Shown: positions 30,194 through 57,495 of the stretch, piece by piece
Layout: each line of letters begins with the position of its first letter
Position numbering within the stretch: the stretch's first letter is position 1
Source of the DNA: Alkalimarinus sediminis
GTDB lineage: Bacteria; Pseudomonadota; Gammaproteobacteria; Pseudomonadales; Oleiphilaceae
Length of the DNA stretch: 64,000 nt
Reading direction: 5' to 3'
Assembly: GCF_026427595.1 (NCBI RefSeq)
Contig: NZ_CP101527.1
Location: 4,149,001 to 4,213,000, forward strand
Translations under genes and position numbers: made by a program
Notes under the pieces: model-generated
Database searches by the model: none
What the model saw: the letters and a program-made list of their open reading frames with translations, nothing else
Told to the model about the DNA's origin: nothing

Positions 30194-30205
30194 TGAAGGA
30201 TAGTG

Positions 30206-31633: not shown

Positions 31634-31728
31634 ACGCTAAACTCTATGCTCATTGAATCTTGTTCAGGGCGCAGTATAAGCGAAACCATTAATAAATCCG
31701 AAAAAACCATTAAGTAGAGACATTTAAC

Positions 31729-34307: not shown

Positions 34308-34357
34308 CTAACAAACGCTTATACACCAACACAGAACACATACTGACCGAGAGAACT

Positions 34358-35326: not shown

Positions 35327-35380
35327 CGACTAAGACGCACATAGACCAAGAACTCAGAGACACTAAAACCTAGACTGTTT

Positions 35381-35453
35381 GTCACCCCCGCGAAGGCTGG
35401 GGTCCATTGTTTAAAACAGCGTTACTATGGATTCCCGCCTTCGCGGGAATGAC
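35381..35453. repeat. Palindromic repeat, family A copy 2
   Basis: Inverted arms at 35381-35407 and 35427-35453 (the right arm contains CCCGCCTTCGCGGGAATGAC) match the element at 11974-12080. It sits between cbiX and cbiC, inside the cobalamin transcription unit. Confidence 0.85.
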
Positions 35454-35517
35454 GGTGACTTGAGAGTGATATACACGTCAATATCAACAACGCTTAACGA
35501 CTGTAACACCCAAAGCT

Positions 35518-39958: not shown

Positions 39959-39965
39959 GAACAAC

Positions 39966-40790: not shown

Positions 40791-41584
40791 GTGTATTTTT
40801 TGTCGGGGCTGGGCCTGGTGACCCAGAACTCATTACCGTTAAAGCACTACGAATCATCCAGCAAAGCCCTGTTATTCTTTACGCCGGATCATTAGTGCCT
40901 GAAGAGATATTGGCGGATGCTCGTGAAGATGCATTAGTCATCGACACCGCATCACTTAACCTTGAAGAGATCATTGATCTTATTCAGCAGGCTCATGCCA
41001 AAGGTCAAGATGTAGCTCGTGTTCACTCTGGTGACCCGTCTATTTATGGCGCGACCGGTGAGCAGATGCGTCGTTTGGATCAGCTTGAAATCCCTTACCA
41101 AACCGTGCCCGGTGTAACCGCTACCAGCGCTTCTGCCGCCTGGCTCAACAAAGAGCTGACGCTTTCAGGTATTACCCAAACGGTGATCATGACCCGCTAC
41201 GCAGGAAAGACACCAATGCCCGAGCGTGAGAATCTAAAATCTCTCGCTCAGCATGGCGCGACGCTAGCTATTCACTTAGGCGTCACCCGCATTCACAAGA
41301 TTGTGGAAGACCTGATTCCGTTTTATGGCGAAGACTGCCCGGTTGCGGTCTGTTATCGCACCAGTTGGCCTGATGCAGACAAGATTACCGCCACCTTAGG
41401 CACTATCGTGGATAAAGTGAGAGAGAAGAAATTCACCCGTACCTCGCTAATTTTAGTCGGTCATGTACTCGACCCTGAGAATTTTGATGACTCGTTTTTA
41501 TATAGCGAAGATCAAGCTCATGTCTACCGACCCAAAGTGAAACCATCAGTGCCTAGAAAAGTAAAACGACCAGAAGTCGAATAA
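40787..41584 (+). CDS. cobM: Precorrin-4 C11-methyltransferase (CbiF/CobM)
   Basis: A 265-residue tetrapyrrole methylase: FFVGAGPGDPELITVKALRI, ILYAGSLVPEEIL, VARVHSGDPSIYGATGEQMRRL and VPGVTATSASAAWLNKELTL. It methylates C-11. The basic C-terminal tail (~20 residues) is an extension of the family core. It is the last gene before a REP-like repeat and cobW. Confidence 0.95.
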   Translation: MSVFFVGAGPGDPELITVKALRIIQQSPVILYAGSLVPEEILADAREDALVIDTASLNLEEIIDLIQQAHAKGQDVARVHSGDPSIYGATGEQMRRLDQLEIPYQTVPGVTATSASAAWLNKELTLSGITQTVIMTRYAGKTPMPERENLKSLAQHGATLAIHLGVTRIHKIVEDLIPFYGEDCPVAVCYRTSWPDADKITATLGTIVDKVREKKFTRTSLILVGHVLDPENFDDSFLYSEDQAHVYRPKVKPSVPRKVKRPEVE

Positions 41585-41598
41585 GACATCGAAATAAT

Positions 41599-41681
41599 GT
41601 AGGAGCGGCTCTTAGCCGCGATAATTCCAGCACCGTAAGGTGCGTTCGCCAACATAATCGCGTCAAAGTGGCGCTCCTACA
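41599..41681. repeat. REP/BIME-like palindromic element between cobM and cobW
   Basis: The left arm GTAGGAGCGGCTCTTAGCCG (from 41600) and right arm ending GGCGCTCCTAC (to 41680) are inverted copies, with a smaller GCACC/GGTGC hairpin between. GTAGGAGCGGC-type REPs are frequent in pseudomonads and relatives. Family C in this window, one copy seen. Confidence 0.8.
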
Positions 41682-41708
41682 ATAAACACGCATTTACAGG
41701 ATATGATC

Positions 41709-42794
41709 ATGCAACTTAACAAAATCCCCGCCACTGTTGTCACCGGTTTTTTAGGCAGTGGTAAAACCACCCTGCTCTCAAACATCCTAAAGCAAGCCAA
41801 TGGCAAGCGCATTGCCGTTATCGTTAACGAGTTTGGCGAGCTGGACATCGACGCTGACTTGCTTCGAAGCTGCCCGCTAGAGTGCGAAGATGAAGCTACA
41901 CCAGAGTCATCAAACAACGGTGAGAACGGTGTTTACGAACTCGCCAATGGTTGTATTTGCTGTACGGTTGAAGAAGAATTTTTGCCCGTCATGAAAGAGC
42001 TGGTTGCGCGCCGCGATGATATCGATCACATACTCATTGAAACGTCTGGTTTGGCATTACCAAAGCCATTGGTACAAGCGTTTAACTGGCCAGAAATCAA
42101 AGCACACTGCACCGTTGACTCGGTAATTACCGTGATAGATGGCCCGGCTGTCGCCGATGGTCGATTTGCACATAACCCTGATCAGGTTGAGCAGCAACGT
42201 AAAGCCGATGAGAGTCTTGACCATGACCCAAGCTTGCAGGAGCTATTGGAAGATCAACTCAGCTCTGCGGATCTGATTGTCGTCAGTAAAAACGACCTGC
42301 TAGACGAAGCCACTCGTAAATCTGTCGATAACACCGTTCGCGGTCGTGTGCCTGAAGAAGTGAAGATCATCCATGTCAGCGATGGTGAAATCGCATCGGA
42401 GCTGATTATGGGGTTGGAGTCTGCTACCGAAGACCGGATCGGTCACGTGCATACCCATCACGACCACCACCATGATCATGGTCATCACCATAAACATGCA
42501 CATGATGACTTTGACTCTGTATCGCTACAATTAGGCAGTGTCGATAGCGATAAACTCATTGCCATTATTAAAGAACTAATCGCAGAGCACACCATCTTTA
42601 GAGCCAAAGGCTTCGCTTCTGTCGCAGATAAACCCATGCGCCAAGTGATTCAGGGCGTTGGCCAACGGATCGAAAGCTATTTTGATCGTTTATGGCAGCA
42701 CGATGAAGAACGCTCAAGCCGCATCGTACTGATTGGGAAAGGGCTCGACGAAGCGTTGCTATTGTCTGCATTGAAGCAAGCTGAGATCTCATAA
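41709..42794 (+). CDS. cobW: CobW family metallochaperone GTPase
   Basis: A 361-residue G3E-family GTPase. Walker A GFLGSGKTT is at residues 13-21; the metal-binding CxCC motif GCICC at 81-85; VDSVITVIDG, then SKNDL (guanine specificity) near residue 195. A histidine cluster (HTHHDHHHDHGHHHKHAHDD) precedes the C-terminal CobW_C domain. It is proposed to deliver cobalt to CobN or load the corrin pathway. The ATG at 41709 has AGGA 7 bases upstream; the ATG at 41703 is too close to it. Confidence 0.92.
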   Translation: MQLNKIPATVVTGFLGSGKTTLLSNILKQANGKRIAVIVNEFGELDIDADLLRSCPLECEDEATPESSNNGENGVYELANGCICCTVEEEFLPVMKELVARRDDIDHILIETSGLALPKPLVQAFNWPEIKAHCTVDSVITVIDGPAVADGRFAHNPDQVEQQRKADESLDHDPSLQELLEDQLSSADLIVVSKNDLLDEATRKSVDNTVRGRVPEEVKIIHVSDGEIASELIMGLESATEDRIGHVHTHHDHHHDHGHHHKHAHDDFDSVSLQLGSVDSDKLIAIIKELIAEHTIFRAKGFASVADKPMRQVIQGVGQRIESYFDRLWQHDEERSSRIVLIGKGLDEALLLSALKQAEIS

Positions 42795-42797
42795 ACC

Positions 42798-45700
42798 ATG
42801 CACCTGCTAGCCGCAAAACCCGGAGGATTCTCCGACGATGAAGGGATTATCGATCTGCAGCAAACCGCTGCAGACATCGTCATTCTAGCCGCTCAGGATA
42901 GTACGCTATCAATGCTGGCACAGTGTGCTGAGTCATTACCTGAAGGCTACCCGAGTATTCGGCTGGCAAATTTTGTTAATCTCACCAAACCAGCCGCCTT
43001 TGACCTCTATGCTCATAGAGTGCTGGAGCACGCCCAATTTATTGTGGTTTCGCTATTGGGGGGGAAAGCCTACCTCCCCTACGGCGTTGAACAGCTGCAA
43101 AAGATCTGTCGCAGCACTGGTGCGCAATTAGCAATTGTGCCGGGGGACGACCAACCCGATGAAGAACTATTTGCCGCCAGCACGCTACCCAGAGACGATC
43201 TTATTCGTCTCTGGCGATACTTGCGAGAAGGCGGCATTCGTAACACCGAGAACGCTTATCGTTTTATCCAACAAACCTACTTTAAAGCATCCATAAACCC
43301 CAACGAAAGGTTAATCGCCTACGAAGAGCCACGCCCATTACCTCGAACCCTGATTTACTGCCCTCACCGGCATGAGCAGTCATTTCAAGAGTGGCAACAA
43401 CGGGTCGCACAACGTCGCGAGCAGGCTGAGCATGCAATCCCCACGGCGGTATTACTGTTCTATCGCAGCCATCTACAAGCCGGTAACACTCAGGCATTTT
43501 CAGCCTTTATTGAGCAACTAGAGCAAAACGGCCTCGCAGTATTACCCATTGCGACAGCATCATTAAAAGAGCCAGAGTGCAAAGCATTAGTCGATCAACT
43601 CTCGCAAAAAAGCGACTGCCGTGTTTTTCTCAACACCACAGCCTTTTCAATTCGTTCAGCGACGACTGATGAAAGTGGAGAGCAAGGTTTTATAGGCAAC
43701 GCTCACCTTAGCTCACAGCCAGATTTACTAGAACCTGACTCGCTATTTGCAGTCAACGCTCCGGTCCTTCAAGTCATTCTCGCGGCTAACAGTGAAGAGG
43801 ACTGGCAAGAACATAGCCAAGGCCTAAGGTCACGGGATATCGCCATGAATATCGCGTTACCTGAAATGGATGGCCGCATTATTTCGAGAGCTATTAGCTT
43901 TAAAAGCGAAATAGACCGCAGTGATCGAACCGAATACAGCCAGGTGGGCTATCAATTACAACCTGATCGAGCTGAATTTGTGGCTGAACTGGCCGCCCGC
44001 TGGGCCTCGCTTTCAATCAAGCCAAACGCTGAGAAACGAATCGCACTGATTCTGGCTAACTACCCCACCCGCGATGGCCGTATAGGCAATGGCGTAGGAC
44101 TCGATACGCCCGCCTCGACCATTGAAATCATAAACGCTATGGGCCAAGCGGGTTACCCCATTGAAGGTATCCCCGAAACAGGCAACGCCTTAATTCAGGA
44201 ACTACTCGGTAACGTCACCAATGACCTAGACAGCGTAGACTTACGGCCCTGCCAACAAAGCCTTTCTATAGATGAATATCAACACCATTTCGCAACGTTG
44301 CCCGAAGCGTGTCAACAAGCCGTATTAGAGCGGTGGGGGTCACCGGATCAAGACCCTAAACACCGCTCTGGCCGCATCATGATTGCAGGCATTCGGCTAG
44401 GCGAAACCTTCGTCGGCATTCAACCTGCTCGTGGCTTTAATGTCGATGTTGCTGCTAACTACCACGATCCAGACCTCGTGCCCCCGCATAGTTATCTGGC
44501 GTTTTATTTCTGGCTCAGGCATAGCTATCAGGTCGATGCGTTTATTCATATCGGTAAACATGGCAACCTTGAATGGTTACCCGGTAAAGGCCTAGCACTG
44601 AGTAATCGTTGTTGGCCCGAAATAGCCCTTGGACCTATGCCGCACCTGTATCCGTTTATCGTTAATGATCCCGGTGAAGGTGCACAGGCAAAACGACGCA
44701 GCCAAGCCGTCGTACTCGATCATCTGATGCCCCCCATGACGAGGGCAGAAACCTATGGCGAACTACAAGAGCTGGAGCAATGGGTTGATGAACTGTATCA
44801 AGCGATGGGCGTTGACCCTCGGAGAGAAGCGCTACTCAGAAGCAAAATTCTAGACCTGATTAACCGTACAAACTTATTGGCAGAACTCAATTTAAAAGGC
44901 GACGAAGTCAATGATGAAAATGCCGTACTAAACGAACTGGACGCCTATTTATGTGATCTCAAAGAAGCCCAGATTCGGGACGGGCTGCATACCTACGGCG
45001 TAAAACCCAGCGGTGAACAACGAACGGACACCCTGGTCGCACTCACTCGACTACCACGAGGAGAGCAACGAGTTGAAGATGCCAGCATTCTCAACTGTTT
45101 GGTTAAAGACCTATCTCTCACCCTTGAGTGTCATGCAGACAGTCCGCTGTTTGACCCACTTAAATTTGACGCCCAGACCTCTTGGCAAGGTCCAAAACCC
45201 GAGATTCTCTACGATATAGAACCCAGCCCATGGCGAACCCATGCCGATACCCGAGAACGGTTGGAACTATTGGCAAAAGAACTTATAGGGTGCGCTTGCG
45301 CACCGATACCTGACATCAAACACACATTAACCGAAGACAACGGTGCACAAGCGCACCCTATGATGAGCCATTTTCCGTGTACTCATGCGCTTTTTCAACA
45401 TATCAAAAAGGTCATCGCGCCCGCCTTTGATGGCAGTGCGCCCGAAGAGCTACGACAGCTACTAAACGGCCTTGAGGGTGGTTTTGTCCCTCCCGGTGCC
45501 AGTGGCGCCCCAACGCGAGGCAGGCTCGACGTACTCCCTACAGGACGAAATTTTTACTCAGTCGATAGCCGCAGCATCCCCACGCCTGCTGCTTGGGAGT
45601 TAGGGCAAGCCTCTGCAGAACAACTGGTCATGCGCCACCTGCAAGAGCATGGTGATTATCCTAAAACCCTTGGGCTATCAGTTTGGGGAACGGCAACCAT

Positions 45701-46748
45701 GCGTACAGGCGGTGATGATATTGCCCAAGCGTTTGCATTAATGGGTATCAAGCCGGTTTGGGCTGCGGGTTCAAATCGCGTCACTGACTTTGAAATTATC
45801 CCCAACTTCTTGTTTAACCGACCACGCGTTGATGTGACCTTACGGGTATCCGGTTTCTTCCGTGACGCCTTTCCTAATGTTATGAAGCTCTATGACGCTG
45901 CCGTAAACGCACTGGCGGAGCATCAAGAACCTGGGAATACCAACACCATTAAACAGCGTATCGAGAGTGATATTGAACAATTAACTCAAAACGGCCTGTC
46001 CCCCGAACAAGCAAAGCAGCAGGCACGATGGCGGGTATTCGGCTCTAAACCCGGCGCTTACGGTGCAGGTCTACAAGGCCTGATAGATGAACGCTGCTGG
46101 GATACCCCCGACGACCTCGCTGAAGCCTATATAAACTGGGGTGGTTACGCCTATGGCCAAAACGAACAAGGTACTCAAGCCTTCGAAACCTTCGAGCATC
46201 GCTTAGGGCAGTTAGAAGCCGTGGTTCAAAATCAGGATAATCGCGAGCACGATCTCTTAGACTCCGATGACTACTATCAATTTCAAGGCGGTATGACCAA
46301 CGCGGTAAGAGTGATCTCTGGCGAAACCCCTGCGGTTTATCACGGCGACCACTCAAACCCTGCAGCTCCGCAGATAAAAACACTACAAGAAGAACTCAAC
46401 CGAGTGATCCGGTCTAGAGTTATCAACCCAAAGTGGATAGCCGGTATGCAACGTCATGGCTACAAGGGCGCATTTGAAATGGCCGCCACCGTCGACTACC
46501 TCTTTGCATACGACGCCACCACCGACATGATTTCAGATTATCAGTATGAAATGGTGGCCGATAATTATCTATTTGAAGAGAAAAACCGCGAGTTTCTAGA
46601 AAACAATAACCCAAAAGCGATGCAAGAGATGGCAGAACGAATGATGGAGGCGATTCAACGAGGGTTGTGGGACGAGCCCGGTGATTACGCTAATCTATTA
46701 GAAAGTCTACTGTTAGACATTGAGGATAAACTAGAACAGGGAATGTAG
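42798..46748 (+). CDS. cobN: Cobaltochelatase subunit CobN
   Basis: A 1316-residue CobN, close to the usual ~1250-1300, related to ChlH/BchH. It inserts cobalt into hydrogenobyrinic acid a,c-diamide in the late-insertion route, with an ATPase partner (here presumably the product at 26251-28152). Landmarks: LANYPTRDGRIGNGVGLDTPAS, HIGKHGNLEWLPGKGLALS (metal and substrate region), VNDPGEGAQAKRR, GNVDV-like RDAFPNVMKLYDAAV, and the C-terminal WKGAFEMAATVDY-like segment. Residues ~829-855 are encoded by a palindromic repeat element inserted in frame (45284-45362). It starts 3 bases after cobW. Confidence 0.95.
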   Translation: MHLLAAKPGGFSDDEGIIDLQQTAADIVILAAQDSTLSMLAQCAESLPEGYPSIRLANFVNLTKPAAFDLYAHRVLEHAQFIVVSLLGGKAYLPYGVEQLQKICRSTGAQLAIVPGDDQPDEELFAASTLPRDDLIRLWRYLREGGIRNTENAYRFIQQTYFKASINPNERLIAYEEPRPLPRTLIYCPHRHEQSFQEWQQRVAQRREQAEHAIPTAVLLFYRSHLQAGNTQAFSAFIEQLEQNGLAVLPIATASLKEPECKALVDQLSQKSDCRVFLNTTAFSIRSATTDESGEQGFIGNAHLSSQPDLLEPDSLFAVNAPVLQVILAANSEEDWQEHSQGLRSRDIAMNIALPEMDGRIISRAISFKSEIDRSDRTEYSQVGYQLQPDRAEFVAELAARWASLSIKPNAEKRIALILANYPTRDGRIGNGVGLDTPASTIEIINAMGQAGYPIEGIPETGNALIQELLGNVTNDLDSVDLRPCQQSLSIDEYQHHFATLPEACQQAVLERWGSPDQDPKHRSGRIMIAGIRLGETFVGIQPARGFNVDVAANYHDPDLVPPHSYLAFYFWLRHSYQVDAFIHIGKHGNLEWLPGKGLALSNRCWPEIALGPMPHLYPFIVNDPGEGAQAKRRSQAVVLDHLMPPMTRAETYGELQELEQWVDELYQAMGVDPRREALLRSKILDLINRTNLLAELNLKGDEVNDENAVLNELDAYLCDLKEAQIRDGLHTYGVKPSGEQRTDTLVALTRLPRGEQRVEDASILNCLVKDLSLTLECHADSPLFDPLKFDAQTSWQGPKPEILYDIEPSPWRTHADTRERLELLAKELIGCACAPIPDIKHTLTEDNGAQAHPMMSHFPCTHALFQHIKKVIAPAFDGSAPEELRQLLNGLEGGFVPPGASGAPTRGRLDVLPTGRNFYSVDSRSIPTPAAWELGQASAEQLVMRHLQEHGDYPKTLGLSVWGTATMRTGGDDIAQAFALMGIKPVWAAGSNRVTDFEIIPNFLFNRPRVDVTLRVSGFFRDAFPNVMKLYDAAVNALAEHQEPGNTNTIKQRIESDIEQLTQNGLSPEQAKQQARWRVFGSKPGAYGAGLQGLIDERCWDTPDDLAEAYINWGGYAYGQNEQGTQAFETFEHRLGQLEAVVQNQDNREHDLLDSDDYYQFQGGMTNAVRVISGETPAVYHGDHSNPAAPQIKTLQEELNRVIRSRVINPKWIAGMQRHGYKGAFEMAATVDYLFAYDATTDMISDYQYEMVADNYLFEEKNREFLENNNPKAMQEMAERMMEAIQRGLWDEPGDYANLLESLLLDIEDKLEQGM
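45284..45362. repeat. Palindromic repeat, family B copy 2, inside the cobN reading frame
   Basis: Left arm TATAGGGTGCGCTTGCGCAC (from 45284) and right arm GGTGCACAAGCGCACCCTAT (to 45361) match the intergenic copies at 14169 and 57403. Within cobN it encodes about 26 residues (IGCACAPIPDIKH ... NGAQAHPM) without breaking the frame. Confidence 0.85.
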
Positions 46749-46771
46749 CTTTGATGCAGTGAGGAACGAGC

Positions 46772-46815
46772 GGAATCAGGGAGAATTTAACTATAGTCGG
46801 TTGCTCCTCGATTCC
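46772..46815. other. Hairpin candidate downstream of cobN
   Basis: GGAATCAGGGAG (46772-46783) pairs with CTCCTCGATTCC (46804-46815) at 10 of 12 positions. There is no T-run, so a terminator is doubtful; it may mark the end of the cobalamin unit. Confidence 0.3.
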
Positions 46816-46869
46816 ATTCACCCTCCTGCCAACAAAACTACAGGGTCTCATCTAAATGACCTAAGTAGC

Positions 46870-47169
46870 CTACAGCTGAGGGCAACCCTTAATCGTCAAC
46901 GCAATGTTCGTTGCATCTTTAACATTTTGATAATAAGAATCAGATGCCTGAACCGCAGCACTAGCCATTTCACCATATTCAACGTTAATCATCTTACCTA
47001 GGTTAGTTAACGTATCTACGGAAGTTCTATCGGCATCATAAGCCGAAAAAGCGCCTTGTATCTGTTCACAGGATGCAGTGATGCCATTAGTCGCCATACT
47101 TGATAGTTGGCCCGATGTTTGGCAACCTGTTAGAGAGATAAAAGCCAGTAAAAGTAATTTTTTATTCAT
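46870..47169 (-). CDS. Small putative lipoprotein
   Basis: A 99-residue protein with a signal peptide and lipobox LTGC (MNKKLLLLAFISLTGCQT), so the mature protein is ~84 residues. Two further cysteines (SCEQI, GCPQL) could form a disulfide. The rest is helical and Ala/Ser/Asp-rich with no family I recognise. It is transcribed toward cobN and diverges from mltF. The ATG at 47169 is preferred over a start four codons upstream. Confidence 0.7.
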   Translation of the reverse strand: MNKKLLLLAFISLTGCQTSGQLSSMATNGITASCEQIQGAFSAYDADRTSVDTLTNLGKMINVEYGEMASAAVQASDSYYQNVKDATNIALTIKGCPQL

Positions 47170-47293
47170 ATTAAGTCTCAAAAGTTAGAAGGGGTTGTAT
47201 GGAGCCATTCTAATAAGTTGTAGCATTAAATGTAACCAAAAGTTAACGGTGTCGTTTGGCATTAACCAAAAGACATTGAGGAGCGCCTCTTAA

Positions 47294-48814
47294 GTGGTCA
47301 TTAAATCTAAGCACACAACAATACTATTTAGCCTGACACTTGGCCTAATGGTCGCTTTTCTCATCAACAAATACGATATCTTACACACAGAAACCACACA
47401 AAATGTCACTTCCGAGATCTATCCTCAAGAACCAGCATTTACCGGAATAACCCCACCAGTCATTCGAATAAACTCGATACTAAAAAGAGGTACTTTAAGG
47501 GTCGCCACCCGCAATGCACCCACGACCTATTACCATGGACCTTTAGGCCCCAAAGGATTTGAGTATGACCTGGTCAAAGATTTTGCCGACTACCTGGGTG
47601 TAGATCTAGAAATCGTTCTCTACGATAACATTGCCGATATCCTCGCTGCGGTCAATTCAGAGGACGTTGATTTAGCGGCAGCCGGAATCACCCAAACCCG
47701 AGAGCGTCAACAATCGTACCTTTTTGGCCCTTCCTATCAAGATATAAAACAGCAGGTGATCTGTAATCGTAAGAATGGCGCACCAAAATCAATAGCCGAC
47801 CTCGTGAACCGCGACATACACGTCATATCACAAAGTAGCTATGTAGAAAGACTAAAAGAGTTAGCCAAGGAGACGCCTGAGCTGTCATGGACGGAGCATC
47901 ACTCCGTTTCTACTGAAGAGTTAATTCATGATGTTGCCGATGGCCATATTGAGTGCGTTGTAAGTGACTCAAATATTGTGAAGTTAAACCAACGATATTT
48001 CCCCAATATCAAAACAGGAGTCGCAATTACAGAAACTCAGCCTCTGGCATGGGTGCTAAGCCAACAGTCAGCCACACTAAAACAAGTCATTAACGACTGG
48101 TTTACACAATATCGCGAGCTTGGTCTTCTTGCCTCTCTTAAACAACACTACTATCAATACGTGCCGATTTTTGATTATGTCGATATCAGAGCGTTTCACC
48201 GCAGAATTGATGCCAGACTACCCAAATATAAGCCCTATTTCGAGCAAGCTGCAGACAAACACCAATTAGATTGGTTATTACTTGCTGCGCAATCCTACCA
48301 AGAGTCTCACTGGAACCCTAAAGCTAAAAGCCCAACAGGTGTACGAGGCATGATGATGCTCACGTTACCCACCGCAAGGCAGGTGGGAGTCAAAAGCAGA
48401 CTCGATGCTAAACAAAGTATTGATGGTGGTGCTAAATATATGTCATCGTTAATTGGGCGACTTCCTAAAGACATTCCTGAACACAGCCGTATTTGGTTTG
48501 GACTCGCCGCCTATAATGTCGGTATGGGTCATCTATATGACGCACGAAACCTTGCAAGCAAACTGGGTAAAGACCCAAATAGTTGGCACGATATGCAAGA
48601 AGTCTTGCCTCTACTCGCCAACAAAAAGTATTACACCAGGCTACGTTATGGCTACGCCAGAGGTTATGAGCCTGTCGAGTATGTAAAACGTGTTCGCCAT
48701 TACCGGGATATATTAGATAAAAAAGTGCAAAAACAAGAACAACTAGAAAAAGAAGAACAATTAAAAAAAGACGAGCAATTAGCAGCGGAAATTTCCAGCG
48801 CTAACACTCCATAA
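47294..48814 (+). CDS. mltF: Membrane-bound lytic murein transglycosylase F
   Basis: A 506-residue enzyme with an N-terminal membrane anchor (residues ~9-24), a periplasmic binding-protein domain (about 58-280, RGTLRVATRNAPTTYYHG) that tunes activity, and a lytic transglycosylase (SLT) domain with the catalytic glutamate in SYQESHW (E337), SPTGVRGMMMLTLPTA and AAYNVGMGHL. It cleaves peptidoglycan to 1,6-anhydro products. The C-terminal tail is Lys/Glu/Gln-rich (KVQKQEQLEKEEQ). GTG start with AGGAG about 10 bases upstream. Confidence 0.94.
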   Translation: MVIKSKHTTILFSLTLGLMVAFLINKYDILHTETTQNVTSEIYPQEPAFTGITPPVIRINSILKRGTLRVATRNAPTTYYHGPLGPKGFEYDLVKDFADYLGVDLEIVLYDNIADILAAVNSEDVDLAAAGITQTRERQQSYLFGPSYQDIKQQVICNRKNGAPKSIADLVNRDIHVISQSSYVERLKELAKETPELSWTEHHSVSTEELIHDVADGHIECVVSDSNIVKLNQRYFPNIKTGVAITETQPLAWVLSQQSATLKQVINDWFTQYRELGLLASLKQHYYQYVPIFDYVDIRAFHRRIDARLPKYKPYFEQAADKHQLDWLLLAAQSYQESHWNPKAKSPTGVRGMMMLTLPTARQVGVKSRLDAKQSIDGGAKYMSSLIGRLPKDIPEHSRIWFGLAAYNVGMGHLYDARNLASKLGKDPNSWHDMQEVLPLLANKKYYTRLRYGYARGYEPVEYVKRVRHYRDILDKKVQKQEQLEKEEQLKKDEQLAAEISSANTP

Positions 48815-48988
48815 TAGAGAGATTAACAGGCCGTTGATTCATATATTCACTAGGTTAACGTCAAGATAAATAGGTAGATAAACACCTACGGTATAACCTG
48901 AGTGGAATGCTGACCATTTCACAATCCCCCTCATTAACGAGTACATTTGTAAGCTGAGTCACTCAAAAACAAAATTGATATCTGTTAT

Positions 48989-49007
48989 GATTGAGAGATT
49001 ATCAATC
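48989..49007. promoter_or_regulatory. Possible operator before the desaturase gene
   Basis: GATTGA-N7-TCAATC, a 6-bp perfect inverted repeat 32 bases before the ATG, overlapping a likely promoter. The regulator is unknown. Confidence 0.35.
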
Positions 49008-49039
49008 AACATTGCTCGCATAGTGTGTCGGAATAGGTT

Positions 49040-50158
49040 ATGAAAAAGCCCAATATTATTTGGATTAATGTACTGATTTTTTCTATTACTGCATTGGTCG
49101 CATTAATCGGTGTACCTTGGTATGGGATGGTTCATGGCTATGATAGCTACCATTTACTAGCGACCGTACTATGTATTGGTTACTGCGGTATGTCGATCAC
49201 AGCAGGCTACCATCGCCTGTGGTCTCACCATGCATATGAAGCCAACATTATCATTCGAATTATCTACGCAATAGGTGGTGCATTCGCGTTGCAGAATAGT
49301 GCCCTGCACTGGTCGTCCGATCACCGAATCCACCACCGCTATGTTGATAACAACGAAAAAGACCCTTACTCGGCTAAAAAAGGATTTTGGTATTCTCATA
49401 TCGGCTGGATGTTGAGAGATTATCAACGCGAACGCTACGATGATTACTCCAATGTTCCAGACTTAAAACGTGACCCTATTGTAATGTGGCAGCACCGCAA
49501 TTATAAGTGGCTAGCTGCAGCGACAAATTTCGGAATCCCCCTTGCTATCGGCTTCTGGCATGGTGATGTATGGGGTATGTTATTAACTGTAGGCGTGTTG
49601 CGCTTGGTTATTTCTCACCATGTTACGTTCTTTATCAACTCTCTGGCACACTTGTGGGGACGACAGCCGTACAGCGATAAAAGTACCGCTAAAGACAACG
49701 CACTTATTGCTTACTTTACCTTCGGAGAGGGTTATCACAACTATCATCACAGCTTCCAATTTGATTATCGTAACGGCATTCGTTGGTGGCAATTTGACCC
49801 CACTAAATGGCTTATTTGGAGCTTAAATAAAGTAGGACTGGCAAAGAATTTACGCACCTGTGGTAATGATCGAATCGAAAAAGCGAAAGCTCAAATGCTA
49901 CTGAAAAAAGCCAATGAGGGACTAAGTAAACTGCCCAACGCAGACGAAATAAGAGACATGCTACACACTGAATATGAGCACTTAGTTGAACATATAAACC
50001 AAGCCTATGAAGCAAAAAAAGCATGGCTAGAGATGAAGAGAAACGACTTAATCGAAGCATATGATAAATCAGAGGCAATGAAGCAATACAAAGAAATTAA
50101 GTCGAACCTGCAAGAACAACGTGAAAAGTGGAATAGCTTAATAACCCAATACGCTTAA
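49040..50158 (+). CDS. Acyl-CoA/acyl-lipid delta-9-type fatty acid desaturase
   Basis: A 372-residue membrane di-iron enzyme. All three histidine boxes are present: HRLWSH (around residue 58), HRIHHR (around 94), and HNYHH in GEGYHNYHHSF (around 234). Four transmembrane helices are visible around them. The last ~90 residues (after CGNDRIEKAKAQ) form a charged helical tail with coiled-coil character beyond the catalytic core, longer than in many bacterial homologues. It would introduce a double bond into saturated acyl chains, adjusting membrane fluidity. Confidence 0.92.
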   Translation: MKKPNIIWINVLIFSITALVALIGVPWYGMVHGYDSYHLLATVLCIGYCGMSITAGYHRLWSHHAYEANIIIRIIYAIGGAFALQNSALHWSSDHRIHHRYVDNNEKDPYSAKKGFWYSHIGWMLRDYQRERYDDYSNVPDLKRDPIVMWQHRNYKWLAAATNFGIPLAIGFWHGDVWGMLLTVGVLRLVISHHVTFFINSLAHLWGRQPYSDKSTAKDNALIAYFTFGEGYHNYHHSFQFDYRNGIRWWQFDPTKWLIWSLNKVGLAKNLRTCGNDRIEKAKAQMLLKKANEGLSKLPNADEIRDMLHTEYEHLVEHINQAYEAKKAWLEMKRNDLIEAYDKSEAMKQYKEIKSNLQEQREKWNSLITQYA

Positions 50159-50164
50159 CGTTCA

Positions 50165-50192
50165 TTTATGGGTGTTAATATACACCCATAAA
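50165..50192. terminator. Perfect 11-bp hairpin after the desaturase gene
   Basis: TTTATGGGTGT (50165-50175) pairs with ACACCCATAAA (50182-50192). There is no strong T-run after it, so termination efficiency is uncertain, but it lies 6 bases after the stop codon. Confidence 0.55.
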
Positions 50193-50252
50193 ATGTTTCT
50201 GATATACTACCGCAATATTTTTACCAAGATGCTTATCTTTAACAAGGATGTT

Positions 50253-50504
50253 ATGAAAAGCAAAGAAGTCTCCGTATCCCGTCCCCGCGTATCAGCCTTT
50301 CTGTATGGGGTTGACCGAGTGTTTATTATCTCGGGAATCAGCTCAGTCATAGCTGTATGGTTTGTCTGGCACTTTATATTTGATCTTGTCTTGCAGGTTA
50401 TTCTTGGAATGACTGCTTTAGTACTTTGGATTAAAAATATTCAGCTCAAACGACACCTCAATAAGCTTGAAAGTAGAACCAGTGTTCTCTTAGATAATAC
50501 GTAA
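50253..50504 (+). CDS. Small two-helix membrane protein
   Basis: An 83-residue protein with two transmembrane helices (about residues 18-38 and 43-60: VFIISGISSVIAVWFVW and LVLQVILGMTALVLWI) and basic tails. No family is recognised. The ATG at 50253 follows AAGGA by 5-6 bases; the frame extends upstream through the desaturase terminator hairpin and that part is unlikely to be translated. Confidence 0.6.
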   Translation: MKSKEVSVSRPRVSAFLYGVDRVFIISGISSVIAVWFVWHFIFDLVLQVILGMTALVLWIKNIQLKRHLNKLESRTSVLLDNT

Positions 50505-50569
50505 CCTCAAATGGGCATGAAGCCCGAATCGTTGTGCTACACAACGAAAACGCAAAAAAAGGATTTAAA

Positions 50570-51268
50570 ATGAAAATGATCTCCACCATAAAGTACCTCT
50601 TTGGCTCCATTGGTTTAGCGATGTTAGTAGGCATGCTGTTTATTTACCAAAGTAACCAGTCATTCCTGGCAACAGCTCATACTGCAGAGGGGACCATTAT
50701 CGATTTTGTTCGCTCCCGCTCAGAGAACTCCACTACCTATGCTCCGGTTATTGCCTTTTACGCCCAAGATGGTGAAGAGACTATATTCACTTCCTCTAGC
50801 TTTAGCAGCCCAGGTAAGTACAGTATAAATGAGAAGGTTGAGTTACTTTATCAACCAGCAAACCCTATTGATGCAAAAATAAACAGCTTTTTCTCGCTAT
50901 GGGGCGGCTGTATGATTGTTGGCATATTAGGGTCTAGCTTCTTTTCGGTAGGCTTGATCATTACGCTTGTTGGTCGTTCAAAAAAGAAGAGAATAAACGA
51001 CTTAAAAAACAATGGCACCCCCATCGAAACAACCTTCCAAAGTGTTGAGATTAATGGCTCGCTCGTCGTTAACGGCAGCAGCCCTTATCAGATCCACACA
51101 CAATGGACCAACCCAGAAAATGCCAAGCTACATATATTCAAGAGTGAGAATATTTGGTTTGACCCTAGCAACCATATTAAAAACGATAAAATAACGGTTT
51201 TAATCGATAGAAATAACCCTAAGAAGTATTATGTTGATACTTCATTTTTACCTGAGGTAGCCGCTTAG
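50570..51268 (+). CDS. DUF3592-type membrane protein
   Basis: A 232-residue protein with an N-terminal helix (about residues 9-28), an extracytoplasmic beta domain (TAEGTIIDFVRSRSENSTTYAPVIAF ... KVELLYQPANPIDAKIN), a second helix pair region (WGGCMIVGILGSSFFSVGLIITLV), and a further beta domain ending KITVLIDRNNPKKYYVD. This VxYdPxNP-like repeat around a helix is the DUF3592 pattern, of unknown function. An AAAGGA 6 bases before the ATG at 50570 sets the start. Confidence 0.8.
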   Translation: MKMISTIKYLFGSIGLAMLVGMLFIYQSNQSFLATAHTAEGTIIDFVRSRSENSTTYAPVIAFYAQDGEETIFTSSSFSSPGKYSINEKVELLYQPANPIDAKINSFFSLWGGCMIVGILGSSFFSVGLIITLVGRSKKKRINDLKNNGTPIETTFQSVEINGSLVVNGSSPYQIHTQWTNPENAKLHIFKSENIWFDPSNHIKNDKITVLIDRNNPKKYYVDTSFLPEVAA

Positions 51269-51592
51269 AATACAGTGTTAGCGGGACGAAAAGCACTAGC
51301 AGAGTAATCCCGCCCAACAACGTACTTATTTTATTATCTAGTAAATTATTATAGAATGCCCCGCTATTTTTTATATTTTGATTAAGGTAAAGCGCTTTGC
51401 AAATAATCTGTCGTAGCGCGCTCCCCTCCTTAAAAGTCACCTGCTCTCCCGTGATGCCTCAATACTAAAACACTAGGCAATAGGGCTGTGCTAGTTATGA
51501 CTTATAAACAAATACTTATTCTATAACTGAGAGACTAGGGCTGCTGTCCCAGCTGAAATAGCGTTGTTTCTAATTACATCACAAGGTTTTCT
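51269..51592. other. Intergenic region before the SulP gene
   Basis: About 320 A+T-rich bases. The promoter of the SulP-Usp pair is presumably here, but I cannot pick a confident one, and I see no strong terminator or repeat. Confidence 0.35.
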
Positions 51593-53080
51593 ATGCTTGA
51601 AAAAATCAAACTCGACTGGCTCTCTAATATAAGGGGAGACTTACTTGCAGGGACAGTTGTTGCTCTGGCGCTCATTCCCGAGGCGATCGCATTCTCTATT
51701 ATTGCAGGGGTTGATCCTAAAGTAGGACTATATGCCTCTTTCTGTATCGCTGTCATCATCTCTGTAGTGGGTGGCCGACCCGGCATGATTTCTGCCGCAA
51801 CAGGCGCTATGGCACTCCTTATGGTTACACTGGTAAAAGAGCATGGCCTCCAATACCTCCTTGCAGCCACGTTATTAACAGGGGTTTTCCAAATCCTCGC
51901 GGGTTATTTAAAGCTCGGCAGCTTAATGCGGTTTGTATCTCGCTCTGTTGTCACGGGGTTTGTAAACGCCCTTGCCATCCTTATATTTATGGCTCAATTA
52001 CCCGAATTAACCAATGTTACCTGGCATGTATATGCAATGACAGCCGCTGGTTTAGGAATTATCTACCTATTCCCTTATATTCCTAAGATTGGAAAAACCA
52101 TCCCATCACCTTTAGTCTGTATTGTTACTTTAACCGCTGTCGCCATATATATGGGACTTGATATTCGTACCGTCGGTGATATGGGGCAACTTCCTGACAC
52201 CTTACCTATATTTTTATGGCCTGATGTACCTCTAAATCTCGATACTTTATTGATTATATTGCCTTATTCGATCGGCCTGGCTGTAGTTGGTTTACTTGAA
52301 TCTATGATGACAGCCACCATCGTTGATGACTTAACAGATACCAAGAGCGACAAAAATAAAGAGTGTCGCGGTCAAGGCATTGCAAACATCGGTGCTGGTC
52401 TAATGGGCGGTATGGCAGGCTGTGCGATGATTGGTCAATCGATCATCAATGTAAAATCTGGCGGTAGAGGAAGACTTTCGACTTTCACCGCAGGTACTTT
52501 GCTCATCATCATGGTTGTTTTTATGGATGAGTGGATAAAGCAAATACCGATGGCTGCACTCGTTGCAGTTATGATCATGGTTTCGATTGGAACCTTCTCT
52601 TGGAGCTCTATTACAGATTTAAAGAAACACCCGATATCAACCAATATCGTTATGATCTCGACTGTCGTCGTGGTTGTAGCTACCCACAACTTAGCACTTG
52701 GTGTTTTAGTAGGCGTACTGTTAGCGACATTGTTCTTTGCCAACAAGATTGGCCGTTTTATGGTAGTAAAATCAGAACAATCCAACGAAGATGTGCGCAC
52801 TTATGAGGTAGTAGGCCAAGTATTCTTTGCTTCATCTGAACAATTTATCGAGTCATTCGACTTTAAAGAAGTGGTAGATAAAGTCATTATTGATCTTACT
52901 CATGCTCATTTTTGGGATATTACTGCAGTATCATCTCTTGATAAGGTCGTGATTAAGTTCCGTCGGGAAGGCGCTGAAGTCGAGGTAATCGGCATGTCAC
53001 AAGCGACTGAAACCATTGTTGATAAATTTGGCGCTCACAACGACCCCAAAGAAGTCGAAAAGCTAATGGCCGGACACTAA
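51593..53080 (+). CDS. SulP (SLC26) family anion transporter with STAS domain
   Basis: A 495-residue transporter with 12-14 transmembrane helices. The opening DLLAGTVVALALIPEAIAFSIIAGVDPKVGLYASF and GRPGMISAATGAMALLMV are SulP signatures; a C-terminal STAS domain (about residues 405-490, VIIDLTHAHFWDITAVSSLDKVV) lies in the cytoplasm. Family members carry sulfate, bicarbonate or dicarboxylates; the sequence alone does not decide. A universal stress protein gene follows 10 bases later, a pairing frequent with SulP genes. Confidence 0.9.
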   Translation: MLEKIKLDWLSNIRGDLLAGTVVALALIPEAIAFSIIAGVDPKVGLYASFCIAVIISVVGGRPGMISAATGAMALLMVTLVKEHGLQYLLAATLLTGVFQILAGYLKLGSLMRFVSRSVVTGFVNALAILIFMAQLPELTNVTWHVYAMTAAGLGIIYLFPYIPKIGKTIPSPLVCIVTLTAVAIYMGLDIRTVGDMGQLPDTLPIFLWPDVPLNLDTLLIILPYSIGLAVVGLLESMMTATIVDDLTDTKSDKNKECRGQGIANIGAGLMGGMAGCAMIGQSIINVKSGGRGRLSTFTAGTLLIIMVVFMDEWIKQIPMAALVAVMIMVSIGTFSWSSITDLKKHPISTNIVMISTVVVVVATHNLALGVLVGVLLATLFFANKIGRFMVVKSEQSNEDVRTYEVVGQVFFASSEQFIESFDFKEVVDKVIIDLTHAHFWDITAVSSLDKVVIKFRREGAEVEVIGMSQATETIVDKFGAHNDPKEVEKLMAGH

Positions 53081-53090
53081 GGAGATAATA

Positions 53091-53942
53091 ATGAATAAGA
53101 TCATAACATGTGTAGATGGCTCGGCTTATTCTGACGCTGTTTGTAATGCTGGTATATGGGCCGCCAATAAGCTCAAGAAGCCTATTTTATTTTTACATGC
53201 CATTGAAAAGGGAAACGCTCCTAGTACAGACAACTTAAGTGGAGCCATCGGATTAGGTGCTCGCTCTTCATTACTAAAAGAGATGTCTGCACTCGATCAG
53301 CAGAGAAACAAACTAGCCCTAGAAGTTGGCAAAGAACTACTTGCTCACGCTGTTGAGCTGGCCGAACAGAATGGCTGCGAGGACATTGAAAAAACGCAAC
53401 GACATAGTGACATAGTAGAGGCTATCTGTGATCTTGAATCAGACGCTCGCTTTTTAGTCATTGGACGCTCAGGTGAAAGTCACGGGGAAAACTTTAAAGC
53501 GATTGGCTCTCATATAGAGCAAGTCATTCGACAAGTACATACGCCCATTCTTATTGCCAATCAAGATTTCAAAGCGCCTCAGAACTTTATGTTTGCCTAT
53601 GATGGCCGAGAAACCGCTGACAAAGCCGTTAAGCGGATTATTGATGGCGGGTTGCTCCATAACTTAACCTGCCACCTCGTCACTGTTAAGAACAATCAGA
53701 AAGACTTATTGGATAAGTTTAAGCGCACAGAAGCCATGCTTAAAGAGAGTGGCTTTGACGTTAAATCTAGCTTCTTAGAAGGCAATATTTTTAACTCATT
53801 GATGGACTACAAAACCAAAAACAACGTAGAAATGCTGGTTATGGGTGCTTTCTCTCACTCGAAGATCGCGCAAGCATTTTTGGGTAGTAATACACTTAAG
53901 ATGATAGAAAAAGTTCATCTGCCATTAGTGGTTTTGCGTTAA
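53091..53942 (+). CDS. Universal stress protein, tandem UspA domains
   Basis: A 283-residue cytoplasmic protein with two Usp folds (about 1-155 and 160-283). The first has IITCVDGSAYSDAVCNAGIWAA, DARFLVIGRSGESHGENFKAIGSHIEQVIR and PILIANQ; the second starts at FMFAYDGRETADKAVKR and ends with MLVMGAFSHSKIAQAFLGSNTLKMIEKVHLPLVVLR, whose G-x2-G-x9-GS-like ATP-binding pattern is present. An AGGAGATAAT precedes the ATG. Co-transcription with the SulP gene suggests it modulates the transporter. Confidence 0.92.
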   Translation: MNKIITCVDGSAYSDAVCNAGIWAANKLKKPILFLHAIEKGNAPSTDNLSGAIGLGARSSLLKEMSALDQQRNKLALEVGKELLAHAVELAEQNGCEDIEKTQRHSDIVEAICDLESDARFLVIGRSGESHGENFKAIGSHIEQVIRQVHTPILIANQDFKAPQNFMFAYDGRETADKAVKRIIDGGLLHNLTCHLVTVKNNQKDLLDKFKRTEAMLKESGFDVKSSFLEGNIFNSLMDYKTKNNVEMLVMGAFSHSKIAQAFLGSNTLKMIEKVHLPLVVLR

Positions 53943-53952
53943 TAACAGATAA

Positions 53953-53976
53953 GAGCTCCTACCTTTGTCGGAGCTC
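53953..53976. terminator. Hairpin between convergent usp and binding-protein genes
   Basis: GAGCTCC (53953-53959) and GGAGCTC (53970-53976) form a perfect 7-bp stem overlapping the stop codon of the minus-strand gene. T-runs are weak on both sides; it is a plausible bidirectional terminator. Confidence 0.5.
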
Positions 53977-54750
53977 AAACCCCAGTTTTAGAGCCTTATC
54001 CATATAGCCATCATCAACCATCTCTCTAATGACCTTTGCGAGAGCATTACGCAGTGCTGGTGTATTGCATTTTGATTTATGTGAGAGAGTTAAATAAAGC
54101 CCTTCACTACTCACCGGCGGAGACAAAGGCATTATATTATCGGAAACTCCCATTTGAGACGCATAGAAAATACCTGGGTTTTTCTCATAAAGTACGTAGT
54201 CGACTCGCTTTAAGCTAAGCATACCAAATGCTTGCTTTAGGCTAGGAACATATTCAATGTTTAGTTGCTTCGATGAGAAATCATCAAATTCTTGACCGAA
54301 GCTATTGTGGATGACCGTCACACCTAACTTACCAACGAGATCTTGCTTTTCGCGATAGTTAAAACTTTTTTCTCTATGTTGCCAAACAACGCTATTTGTA
54401 CTCAAAAAAGGGGGATGAACATAATTCATCCATTGACTCCGGGGAGTGGTATAAAATGCGCCTGCAATCATATCTATACGCCCAGACTTAACTTTTTCTT
54501 GAGCTCTAGACCAAGCGCCTACATGTTTTAGGCTGATAGTCAGGTCTAGTCGAGCCCCTATTTCTGCAATAATGAAAGCGATCGCACCCTGTAGTTGGTT
54601 GTTATTGCCTTTTTCGTACCATAGGTAAGGTGGGTATTCGGAGTTTCCCGTCGCACTAAGCTCTCTGCATTCGCTTGCATTTATAGCTGGCGCCGAACTA
54701 AAAAAGATTAACGTAATTAAAAAAGTGCTTACGACACCACAACGAGCCAT
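53959..54750 (-). CDS. Solitary periplasmic solute-binding protein (SBP family 3-like)
   Basis: A 263-residue exported protein: signal peptide ending around SAPAINA (about residue 25), then an amino-acid-type binding fold: YPPYLWYEKGNNNQLQGAIAFIIAEIGARLDL, VKSGRIDMIAGAFYTTPRSQWMNYVHPPF, and LVGKLGVTVIHNSFGQEFDDF. No permease or ATPase gene is adjacent, so it may feed an orphan transporter or serve as a sensor-type binding protein. It converges with the usp gene. Confidence 0.85.
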   Translation of the reverse strand: MARCGVVSTFLITLIFFSSAPAINASECRELSATGNSEYPPYLWYEKGNNNQLQGAIAFIIAEIGARLDLTISLKHVGAWSRAQEKVKSGRIDMIAGAFYTTPRSQWMNYVHPPFLSTNSVVWQHREKSFNYREKQDLVGKLGVTVIHNSFGQEFDDFSSKQLNIEYVPSLKQAFGMLSLKRVDYVLYEKNPGIFYASQMGVSDNIMPLSPPVSSEGLYLTLSHKSKCNTPALRNALAKVIREMVDDGYMDKALKLGFELRQR

Positions 54751-55477
54751 TATCTAGTAACTCCAAAGCATTTGACTGATTCTTTGTTTTGACTTTTCTG
54801 ACCTGAAAACTTGAAAATTAGTGCTTACCTCCACAGAGGGTATCCATCTAAATATAGTTTAGATTGTCACTATTTCCATGCTCTACCTTATCAAAGTAGA
54901 GCCGTTCTCAAAGCATACGACTCATTGTCGCCGAACATATTGTAATTGCTATACGGTTCAACAATGAAAATTAACAAACATGCTTTCAATATCACACTAC
55001 GATATTTAAATACCAAAAGTATCTCTATGGACTATGGTGCAATGTGCTAATTACTGGGTTGTCTTGATTTGACTTGGTCATGAGGTGTTAGCTATGGAGA
55101 TTTTAGATATGGGGCAGTTAGCGGTCATTATTTACTGACGTGTAAGTTCAATCTACCAATCTAAAGTAAACAGCACTAAACGTCTGCTGCTCGCCTATTT
55201 GGGAATGACAGCGAGCATGAGACATAAGCAGCGTCAAAAGTATCACTGAGTACTCTTGTTAAGTTATTGATAGACTCTCAGAAACGCAAGTTTTAGGTCA
55301 ATGCCTAGCCCTTTACCTAAAGACCAAAATGGCTGCTGTCTTTAGCTCAAAAACCAGCATTGACTTAAAGTTCGTTATAGCTGTTTGCCCCTATCTAGAC
55401 CAAACATCTGAACTGCGGTTATACGGACTTTAACGATCTTCACTGTGATATAAGTTGCAGCCTTGGAGGCTGCCGGC
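54751..55477. other. Gene-free stretch bordering attTn7, probably decayed DNA
   Basis: About 730 bases without any convincing open frame. It contains a nested hairpin (55291-55373) and a short GCAGCC/GGCTGC palindrome (55457-55473), and ends at the inner side of the Tn7-like end. It may be the eroded interior of a Tn7-type element, but no transposition gene fragment is recognisable. Confidence 0.45.
55291..55373. other. Nested inverted repeats, possible structured RNA or repeat element
   Basis: Outer arms GTCAATGC (55297-55304) and GCATTGAC (55357-55364) enclose inner arms CTAAAGAC (55317-55324) and GTCTTTAG (55338-55345). The outer stem can be extended imperfectly outward (TTTTAG with CTTAAAG). 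The order outer-inner-inner-outer is that of one long hairpin with an internal loop. Confidence 0.5.
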
Positions 55478-55529
55478 GGAAAAGTTAACAACTATATTGT
55501 TTTATTAACATCTTTATTGTCCACCGACA
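55478..55529 (-). mobile_element. Right end of a Tn7-like transposon at attTn7 (remnant)
   Basis: Read on the minus strand from 55529, the sequence starts TGTCGGTGGACAATAAAG, which agrees with the Tn7 right terminus (TGTGGGCGGACAATAAAG, from memory) at 16 of 18 positions. Two direct repeats of the pattern ACAATA[A/T]AG[A/T]TGTTAA, 14 of 16 identical, start at 55520 and 55500, exactly 20 bp apart, like tandem TnsB-binding sites. The terminus lies 24 bp beyond the glmS stop codon, the characteristic Tn7 insertion distance and orientation (right end toward glmS). No tnsABCDE genes are in the window. Confidence 0.75.
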
Positions 55530-55590
55530 GCACATAGGTAAGTTAGTACTCACCTACTCCACAGTTACTGATTTTGCTAGATTTCTCGGT
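55530..55590 (-). other. attTn7 target: 3' end of glmS and adjoining bases
   Basis: The last codons of glmS ([10 protein letters not shown]) and the ~25 bases after the stop are the known recognition and insertion region of Tn7 TnsD. In this genome it appears to have been used, since a Tn7-like terminus starts at 55529. If so the 5-bp target duplicate next to the end would be GCACA (55530-55534). Confidence 0.7.
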
Positions 55591-57386
55591 TGATCTACAT
55601 CTGTTCCTTTGATTAAAGCAACATGATAACTCAGTAGCTGTAGCGGTACGGTATATAGAATTGGAGCTACGATCTTATCGCACTGAGGTACATCTAATAC
55701 CTTCATGGTCTCGTCGCTTTTAAAGTGTGCACCGCTATCTGCAAACACATACATCAAGCCACCCCGTGCTCTAACCTCTTCTACATTGGAATGTAGTTTT
55801 TCCAATAGTTCATTGTTAGGTGCGACTACGATAACCGGCATATCAGCATCAATAAGTGCCAATGGGCCATGTTTTAGCTCGCCTGCTGCATAGGCTTCGG
55901 CGTGGATGTAAGAGATCTCTTTAAGCTTCAGAGCCCCTTCCATAGCGATAGGGTACTGATCACCGCGACCTAAAAATAGGCTATGGTGCTTATCGGCAAA
56001 ATCTTCAGCAAGCGCTTTGATCTCATCATCCATATTGAGTGCTTGTTCAATTTTAGCAGGTAATGACAATAAAGCAGTGACGATATTGGCTTCGGTCTCT
56101 TCGTCCATACTATTGTATTTACCGATAGCCGCAACCAACAATAACAAGCCGGTTAACTGCACCGTAAACGCCTTGGTTGAAGCTACGCCAATCTCAGCCC
56201 CAGCGTTCATCATATACGCAAGGTCGGATTCACGAACCATAGACGAGCCAGGTACATTACATATCGTTAGACTGGATTTAAAACCAAGCTCTTTTGCTAG
56301 TCTTAATGCCGCTAATGTGTCAGCTGTTTCACCCGACTGAGAGATAGTTACCAGCAATGAGTTTGGATGAACCACAGGTTTGCGATAACGGAACTCGGAT
56401 GCTATTTCAACATTACATGAAATACCGGCAATATCTTCAAACCAGTATCGTGCGGTCATACCTGCGTTATAACTGGTACCGCAAGCGATAATCTGAACAT
56501 GTTTTATCTCTTTTAGAATATCTTCTGCGTTAGCACCAAAGGTTTCAGCTGAAATTTTACCTGCAGAAATTCGGTCTTTTAAGGTGTTTTTCAGGGCTAT
56601 TGGCTGTTCATAGATCTCTTTTAGCATGTAGTGCTTGAAAGGTCCTTTGTCACCCGCATCATGCGATATATCAGACTCTTTGATCTGTCGCTCTACCTGC
56701 TTGCCACTTTCATCATAGATTATCACGCCATGTCTGGTCAGTTCTGCAATATCGCCCTCTTCCAGAAATGCAAAGTTGCGAGTAACAGGTAGCAAGGCCA
56801 ATTGGTCGGAAGCAAGAAAGTTTTCACCAATCCCGTACCCTATAACCAGTGGACTTCCCGAACGAGCCGCAATTAAACGACCTGGGTCGGTTTTATCCAT
56901 CACAACAGCACCGTAAGCACCTTCTAACTGCTTAATAGTTGCCTGAAATGCCGCTAATAATGTGTCATGGCGCGTCAACTCAAAGTGAACGAGGTGAACG
57001 ATTACTTCGGTATCTGTATCTGATGTAAACTCATACCCTTGTTTTACTAGCATCTCACGCAATACATGGTGGTTTTCTATAATACCGTTATGAACCACAG
57101 CAATACGATCACCCGAAGTATGTGGGTGGGCGTTTAGTTCATTAGGCTCTCCATGTGTTGCCCATCGGGTATGTGCTATACCTGTACCACCTGCACAGGG
57201 CGTTTGCTCAAGCGCATCTGCCAATGATTGAACTTTACCGACTCGTCGTACACGATTGAAATCGCCATCTTTAGTTAACAGTGCGACTCCGGCAGAGTCA
57301 TAGCCTCGATATTCGAGCCTTTTAAGTCCTTCTACAAGAATTTCCGCTACATCCCTTTGTGCCACAGCACCTACGATTCCACACAT
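55554..57386 (-). CDS. glmS: Glutamine-fructose-6-phosphate aminotransferase (isomerising)
   Basis: A 610-residue enzyme making glucosamine-6-phosphate for peptidoglycan and LPS. It begins MCGIVGA with the catalytic Cys2 exposed after Met removal; the amidotransferase half (1-240) has [11 protein letters not shown] and HNGIIENH, and the isomerase half has two SIS domains ([51 protein letters not shown]) and ends [13 protein letters not shown]. Length and motifs are normal. It follows glmU on the same strand with a palindromic repeat in between. Confidence 0.98.
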
Positions 57387-57402
57387 TTTTTACTGTTCCT
57401 AA

Positions 57403-57495
57403 TATAGGGTGCGCTTGCGCACCATTTAATTCTATACACCAAATTATGAGCTTCGGTTAGCTCATACATGGTTTGGTGCGCTAGCGCACCCTATA
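57403..57495. repeat. Palindromic repeat, family B copy 3, between glmU and glmS
   Basis: Left arm TATAGGGTGCGCTTGCGCAC (from 57403) and right arm GGTGCGCTAGCGCACCCTAT (57475-57494) flank ~50 bp, which itself contains GAGCT/AGCTC. Same family as 14169-14260 and the copy in cobN. On the glmUS transcript it would form a large hairpin and could influence relative expression. Confidence 0.85.

Follow-up and report, generated by a model that had tools for sequence, protein, structure and literature searches.

Immediately downstream of glmS in Alkalimarinus sediminis lies a sequence (55485-55529) that is very probably a stranded right end derived from a Tn7-like transposon of the glmS-targeting TnsABCDE type, the body, tns genes, and left end of which were later lost. 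The window, by which we mean the whole stretch of 64,000 nucleotides that was analyzed, spans positions 4149001-4213000 of a genome assembled as a single contig (G000; 4,226,946 bases). We observe the end itself, its position behind glmS, and its likeness to the right ends of relatives that bear tns genes, and we detect neither a tns gene nor a left end belonging to it. The sequence adds a further example to a known element type and is a real, fairly ordinary relic, because the tip recurs in relatives at this very position, in some cases with the genes of the element still attached.

The glmS gene is an ORF of 610 aa on the minus strand (55554-57386), and GlmS is present in 53 of the 58 genomes searched, including our own. 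In Tn7, the 3′ end of this gene is the recognition site of TnsD. Past the stop codon, a spacer of 24 bp (55530-55553), in the same distance class as in relatives, leads to the right-end terminus TGTCGGTG (55522-55529, minus strand, reading inward), which is followed by two TnsB-like sites, ACAATAAAGATGTTAA (site 1; 55505-55520, minus strand) and ACAATATAGTTGTTAA (site 2; 55485-55500, minus strand). Read on the minus strand from 55529 inward, the right end is TGTCGGTGGACAATAAAG; the longer form of the sequence 24 bp past the stop codon is TGTCGGTGGACAATAAAGATGTTAATAAAACAATATAGTTGTTAACTTTT. The two sites are 16-mers that are identical at 14/16 positions and repeat with a 20-bp period. This base-level reading bears out the preliminary description, which had placed an end on the minus strand 24 bp past glmS, with two direct repeats of this identity and period, and had found the adjoining ~730 bp to be without genes: every ORF between 54751 and 55553 is shorter than 90 aa. 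A target duplication would occupy the inner 5 bp of the spacer (55530-55534); the window shows no left end and hence no left boundary at which a 5-bp duplicate could be sought. Inward of the end, a non-coding segment (55380-55484, minus strand) is homologous, by alignment, to the sequence just inside a right end without tns genes in the sister species G002, and a further non-coding stretch (54798-55379) has no significant tns similarity, its portion at 55201-55300 having an 80% copy elsewhere in the genome. The next ORF is a solute-binding protein gene (53959-54750, minus strand; SBP_bac_3). This gene may be either a chromosomal neighbor or the last cargo gene: it adjoins the remnant in G001, survives as a 94-bp relic in G003, and is unmatched in the G002 flank that was fetched.

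To score the end, we used two profiles made entirely from relatives, with our own genome excluded: a terminus profile of 27 bases from ten ends (nine right and one left) and a site profile of 17 bases from 23 sites. The 27 bases that start at 55529 reach 34.3 bits, with the next best position in the real window at 16.4, while 30 Markov-1 shuffles of the window give a mean best score of 11.5 and a largest of 20.0. Sites 1 and 2 score 20.4 and 26.7 bits, respectively, against a mean best of 13.7 and a largest of 19.0 in the shuffles (n = 30). The preliminary description had named a lack of TnsB-site similarity in a profile search as grounds for refutation; the profile of the relatives picks out the window end. 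Looser patterns are not significant alone, whether the repeat is allowed up to three mismatches (5 matches vs. 2.8 expected) or TGTCGGNGGACAA is used (43 vs. 38.7 expected). The two sites resemble the TnsB sites of family members, a likeness in sequence that suggests TnsB would bind them. Against the Tn7 ends as we presume them to read (27 bases each), the window end matches the right end at 18/27 positions and the left end at 19/27, and a TGT terminus is presumably common to both elements; the 16/18 identity to the Tn7 right terminus given in the preliminary description likewise refers to what was taken to be the Tn7 sequence.

The same end recurs in relatives at a nearly constant distance from glmS. 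A search with an 81-base query yields matches in 9 of 146 genomes, our own included. In a base-level reading of 14 glmS 3′ flanks, the terminus is present in eight (G000, G001, G004, G008, G021, G022, G031, and G044); six of these have it 24 bp from the stop codon and the remaining two 25 bp. It is not found in the other six flanks (G002, G003, G007 contig 18, G013, G032, and G036). A search of 390 genomes from the order gives at least five matches, our own included, a count that is a lower bound because few candidates per genome were scored; one of the five is a weak match in G102, at a locus without glmS in the stretch fetched. In the other three genomes, the end lies behind glmS: at 25 bp in G213, at 24 bp in G292, and, with a decayed terminus, ~2 bp further out in G172, while a pattern scan of genome contigs places it at 24 bp in a Paraglaciecola metagenome-assembled genome (MAG). 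Counting the window and ten other genomes, the distance is 24-25 bp in all of the ends in which terminus and stop codon are both clean (11/11). The exact-pattern scan returns four loci from genome contigs and none from viral contigs, and plasmids yield no match to the window end and three partial ones to the G003 end plus the start of tnsA. On contig 19 of G007 (L024), the glmS 3′ end is present a second time in decayed form and still has behind it a right end that is likewise decayed, at a distance of 28 bp to the first stop codon and 25 bp to the next. The glmS tail and the scar may thus have been copied or relocated as a unit.

These flanks bear on whether the likeness could be due to chance or to a native glmS 3′ region or terminator, either of which we consider practically negligible. 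A fold of 59 nt is possible in the stretch (z = −4.4), but 55300-55620 contains no terminator-like site, a search of 54700-55700 against Rfam is empty up to E = 5, and the profile scores stand far above those of the shuffles. The preliminary description had also raised the prospect of a conserved glmS tail and had proposed a comparison with empty-site relatives. A conserved tail does not agree with the terminus being absent from 6/14 flanks and, where present, often having tnsA directly inside it; G002 and G003 supply glmS flanks in which no terminus is found. A candidate palindromic element of 59 bp bounded by TGTCGGTGGA and TCCGCCGGCA was rejected, as no target duplication is apparent by eye and the pairing, also judged by eye, is not kept in G002.

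The genes that follow the end in relatives identify the element family. In 5 of the 10 other genomes, tnsA and tnsB lie behind the end: G021 and G022 have TnsA-E inside the glmS-side end, intact as far as the fetched DNA goes; G008 has TnsA, TnsB, and the start of TnsC before its contig ends; and G213 and G292 have TnsA and the start of TnsB up to the end of the fetched locus. The match in distance, orientation, and repeat period to a glmS-targeted relative of Tn7, as originally proposed, is thereby corroborated by profile, by position, and by the tnsA that adjoins the same end in relatives. We assembled 13 end-bearing glmS 3′ ends, 12 from genomes of this order and one from the Paraglaciecola MAG. 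Five are intact as far as seen, six are remnants (G000, G001, G044, G031, G172, and G007 contig 19), and two are unclassed, namely G004, in which similarity to tnsA ends at residue 166, ~100 bases before the contig end, and Paraglaciecola, with 138 bases available. It is a modest surprise that remnants make up about half of the end-bearing glmS loci examined here. The remnants differ in what they retain: residues 8-159 of a 283-residue TnsA homologue in G001, residues 410-536 of TnsE in G044, a weak 25-residue TnsE match alone in G007 contig 19, and no Tns similarity at E = 1e-3 within ~1.5 kb inside the end in G172. In G031, the remnant is a 195-bp element with both a right and a left end directly behind glmS (L035:160-354, contig 13), flanked by CCTGC and TCTGC (4/5 alike); this is a natural mini-Tn7. 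Within the same genus, the G001 remnant has a right end 47/50 identical to that of the window, at an equal distance from glmS and with the same solute-binding protein gene as neighbor. It differs in its retained piece of tnsA, and inner similarity to the window is absent from beyond the end up to the promoter of the solute-binding protein gene.

Among elements that carry tns genes, the TnsA-E elements of G021 and G022 (at glmS) and of G003 (contig 4, away from glmS) have the same kind of terminus and the same 20-bp site period as the window, those of G021 and G022 also at the same place. They differ in having three sites, starting GTAATAAAG instead of ACAATAAAG, followed by a hairpin and tnsA-E, whereas the window has neither hairpin nor genes. 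Pfam assigns to the G003 set the domains expected of TnsA-E: TnsA, the Mu-type transposase C-terminal domain, TniB/TnsC, TniQ/TnsD, and TnsE. G032 carries a diverged tns set at glmS, the ends of which are missed by the profile of the relatives. By eye, the hairpin between the right end and tnsA in tns-bearing relatives (L074 ~19100-19180; L037 ~220-270) is terminator-like with a run of T, and perhaps shields tnsA from glmS read-through. Two further arrangements occur away from glmS. Contig 3 of G031 (L036:9845-9909) carries a right end in clean form whose three sites are all perfect. No position in the next 76 kb to the right scores more than 12.3 bits, and the TnsB search returned no close member of the family from that genome. 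Contig 2 of G213 (L098 ~1380-1530) has three spaced, same-orientation TnsB-like sites in a left-end-like layout.

The preliminary description had reported no tnsA-E at the site, and this holds across the searches. TnsA-family proteins number 0 in our own genome and occur in 24/146 genomes of the same search; TnsB is likewise 0 and is found in 5/13 genomes, among them G031 with only a distant homologue. Searches for the TnsC and TniQ families, run without a positive control, are empty in our genome. With ten Tns proteins as tblastn queries (A-E of G003 and G022), the window gives no match at E = 1e-3, and with E raised to 10, the best match in 53901-55529 is at E = 0.075. The suggested leftward scan for an inverted terminus turned up nothing convincing: no left-end-oriented site scores above 12.6 bits in the site profile across ~115 kb left of the end. 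In the same scan, the left sites of G003 are recovered (21.0 and 27.8 bits), and none are found for G022 in the 40 kb examined, so the sensitivity of the ~115-kb result is limited. A 15.2-bit site at G000:C1:4097375 was discarded as a left end, as it has right-end orientation and stands alone. A complete autonomous Tn7-like transposon is expected to have tns genes and an inverted left end, and we find neither.

Tn7-like islands can be long, and a left end far to the left would make the genes of the window cargo of a complete large island. That the left end of G022 also went unfound in 40 kb would fit such an island, but the ~115-kb scan, the lack of TnsA and TnsB hits in our genome, and synteny all speak against it. 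The 20-kb flank of G002 has window positions 48936-53941 beside glmS at 80% identity, with further pieces back to 7193, and that of G003 has positions 33431-50136 beside glmS, in pieces. As most of 33431-53941 thus stands beside glmS in G002 or G003, where no end is found in the glmS flank, it is not cargo. Synteny largely refutes the large island, which we regard as very improbable. Of the three origins offered in the preliminary description, an eroded or deleted element fits these data, while a distant left end with downstream genes as cargo does not.

A different parent is suggested by related copies without tns genes. Our own genome has a second, damaged copy at 1156130, which shares 70 bp at 83% with the window, and G002 has a tns-less copy at C1:2192130, not beside glmS, which shares the end and ~105 bp inward (77/106 columns alike). 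The shared inner sequence of these copies indicates that the parent may have been non-autonomous, a mini-element with a short tns-less body from the start that was moved by Tns proteins in trans and whose left end has since decayed. This model is a variant of the stranded right end with another parent, such that our confidence in the two overlaps; we hold it as a tentative possibility. Consistent with it, the G002 copy has no tnsA, the inner sequence of the window is not tnsA, unlike that of G001, and G031 provides a both-ended element of 195 bp at attTn7. When the window is compared with G002, conservation is also higher in the sites (37/40) than in the inner columns (77/106; Fisher p = 0.012), a contrast that weakens when the terminus, decayed in G002, is included (42/48 vs. 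77/106, p = 0.06) and that would suit copies that diverged while still mobile. However, there is no left end in the 730 bp or further left, such copies number only three, and no target duplications are seen. Partial matches in our own genome (L003 and L004) lack a second site by eye and were not accepted, leaving 1156130 as the sole real second copy. In a check for the empty site of this copy, the protein beside it has no match in four sister genomes at E = 1e-60, in a search run without a positive control. In the joined stretch of G002, a seeming site at 23516 was set aside because it falls in coding-like sequence (IS66-type by eye).

For the stranded right end, we propose that TnsD, reading the 3′ end of glmS, would have directed an element of this family to attTn7, where it came to lie 24 bp past the stop codon, the right end towards glmS. 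The body, tns genes, and left end would then have been lost, probably by deletion, so that what survives is the terminus with its two TnsB-like sites and possibly ~100 bp of the interior. An excerpt of one report places Tn7 insertion "about 20 bp" past the glmS stop codon (PMC2918618), and excerpts of another describe a Tn7 right end of closely spaced TnsB sites, four partially overlapping 22-bp sites in the prototype (PMC11406308). Relative to Tn7 and other glmS-targeting TnsABCDE elements as portrayed in such excerpts, the window shares the position after glmS, the right end turned towards glmS, and the close spacing of TnsB-like sites; it differs from Tn7 in having two such sites rather than four overlapping ones and no tns genes or left end. 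Among titles and abstract openings, we did not find stranded Tn7 right ends at glmS described, which is no proof of absence.

Target immunity is a described property of Tn7 (excerpt of PMC11406308), and a leftover right end may still confer it at attTn7 if incoming TnsB were to bind the sites and disarm TnsC; that the end has been kept for this purpose is quite unlikely. The window end differs at 3/46 bases from the consensus of eight relatives and also at 3/46 from the G001 end, although a search by similarity favors ends that look alike. The window and G001 agree at 43/46 positions of the end and at 11/24 of the adjoining 24-bp spacer (p = 1.6e-5), a contrast that a recent independent insertion explains equally well. 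More generally, attTn7 keeps readable scars of past visits by Tn7-like elements. Such scars can help date element turnover, mark sites that are seemingly empty but not so for mini-Tn7 tools, and offer a natural test of target immunity from a lone right end.

Several other features were seen. A palindromic repeat that is dispersed in intergenic sequence (GGTGCGCAAGCGCACCCTATA with its variants) occupies 57395-57490 of the window between glmS and glmU and is also present beside the second right-end copy (L002 1600-2140). Inside the cobalamin genes, a gene of 326 aa (38203-39183; RhuM/Fic-like by eye) has a related ORF at the same place in G003, and the stretch is unmatched in G001. Finally, two long ORFs of 504 and 475 aa occupy opposite strands of the same stretch (30203-31717, plus strand; 30206-31633, minus strand), and both members of this pair are also open in G001 (522 and 482 aa).
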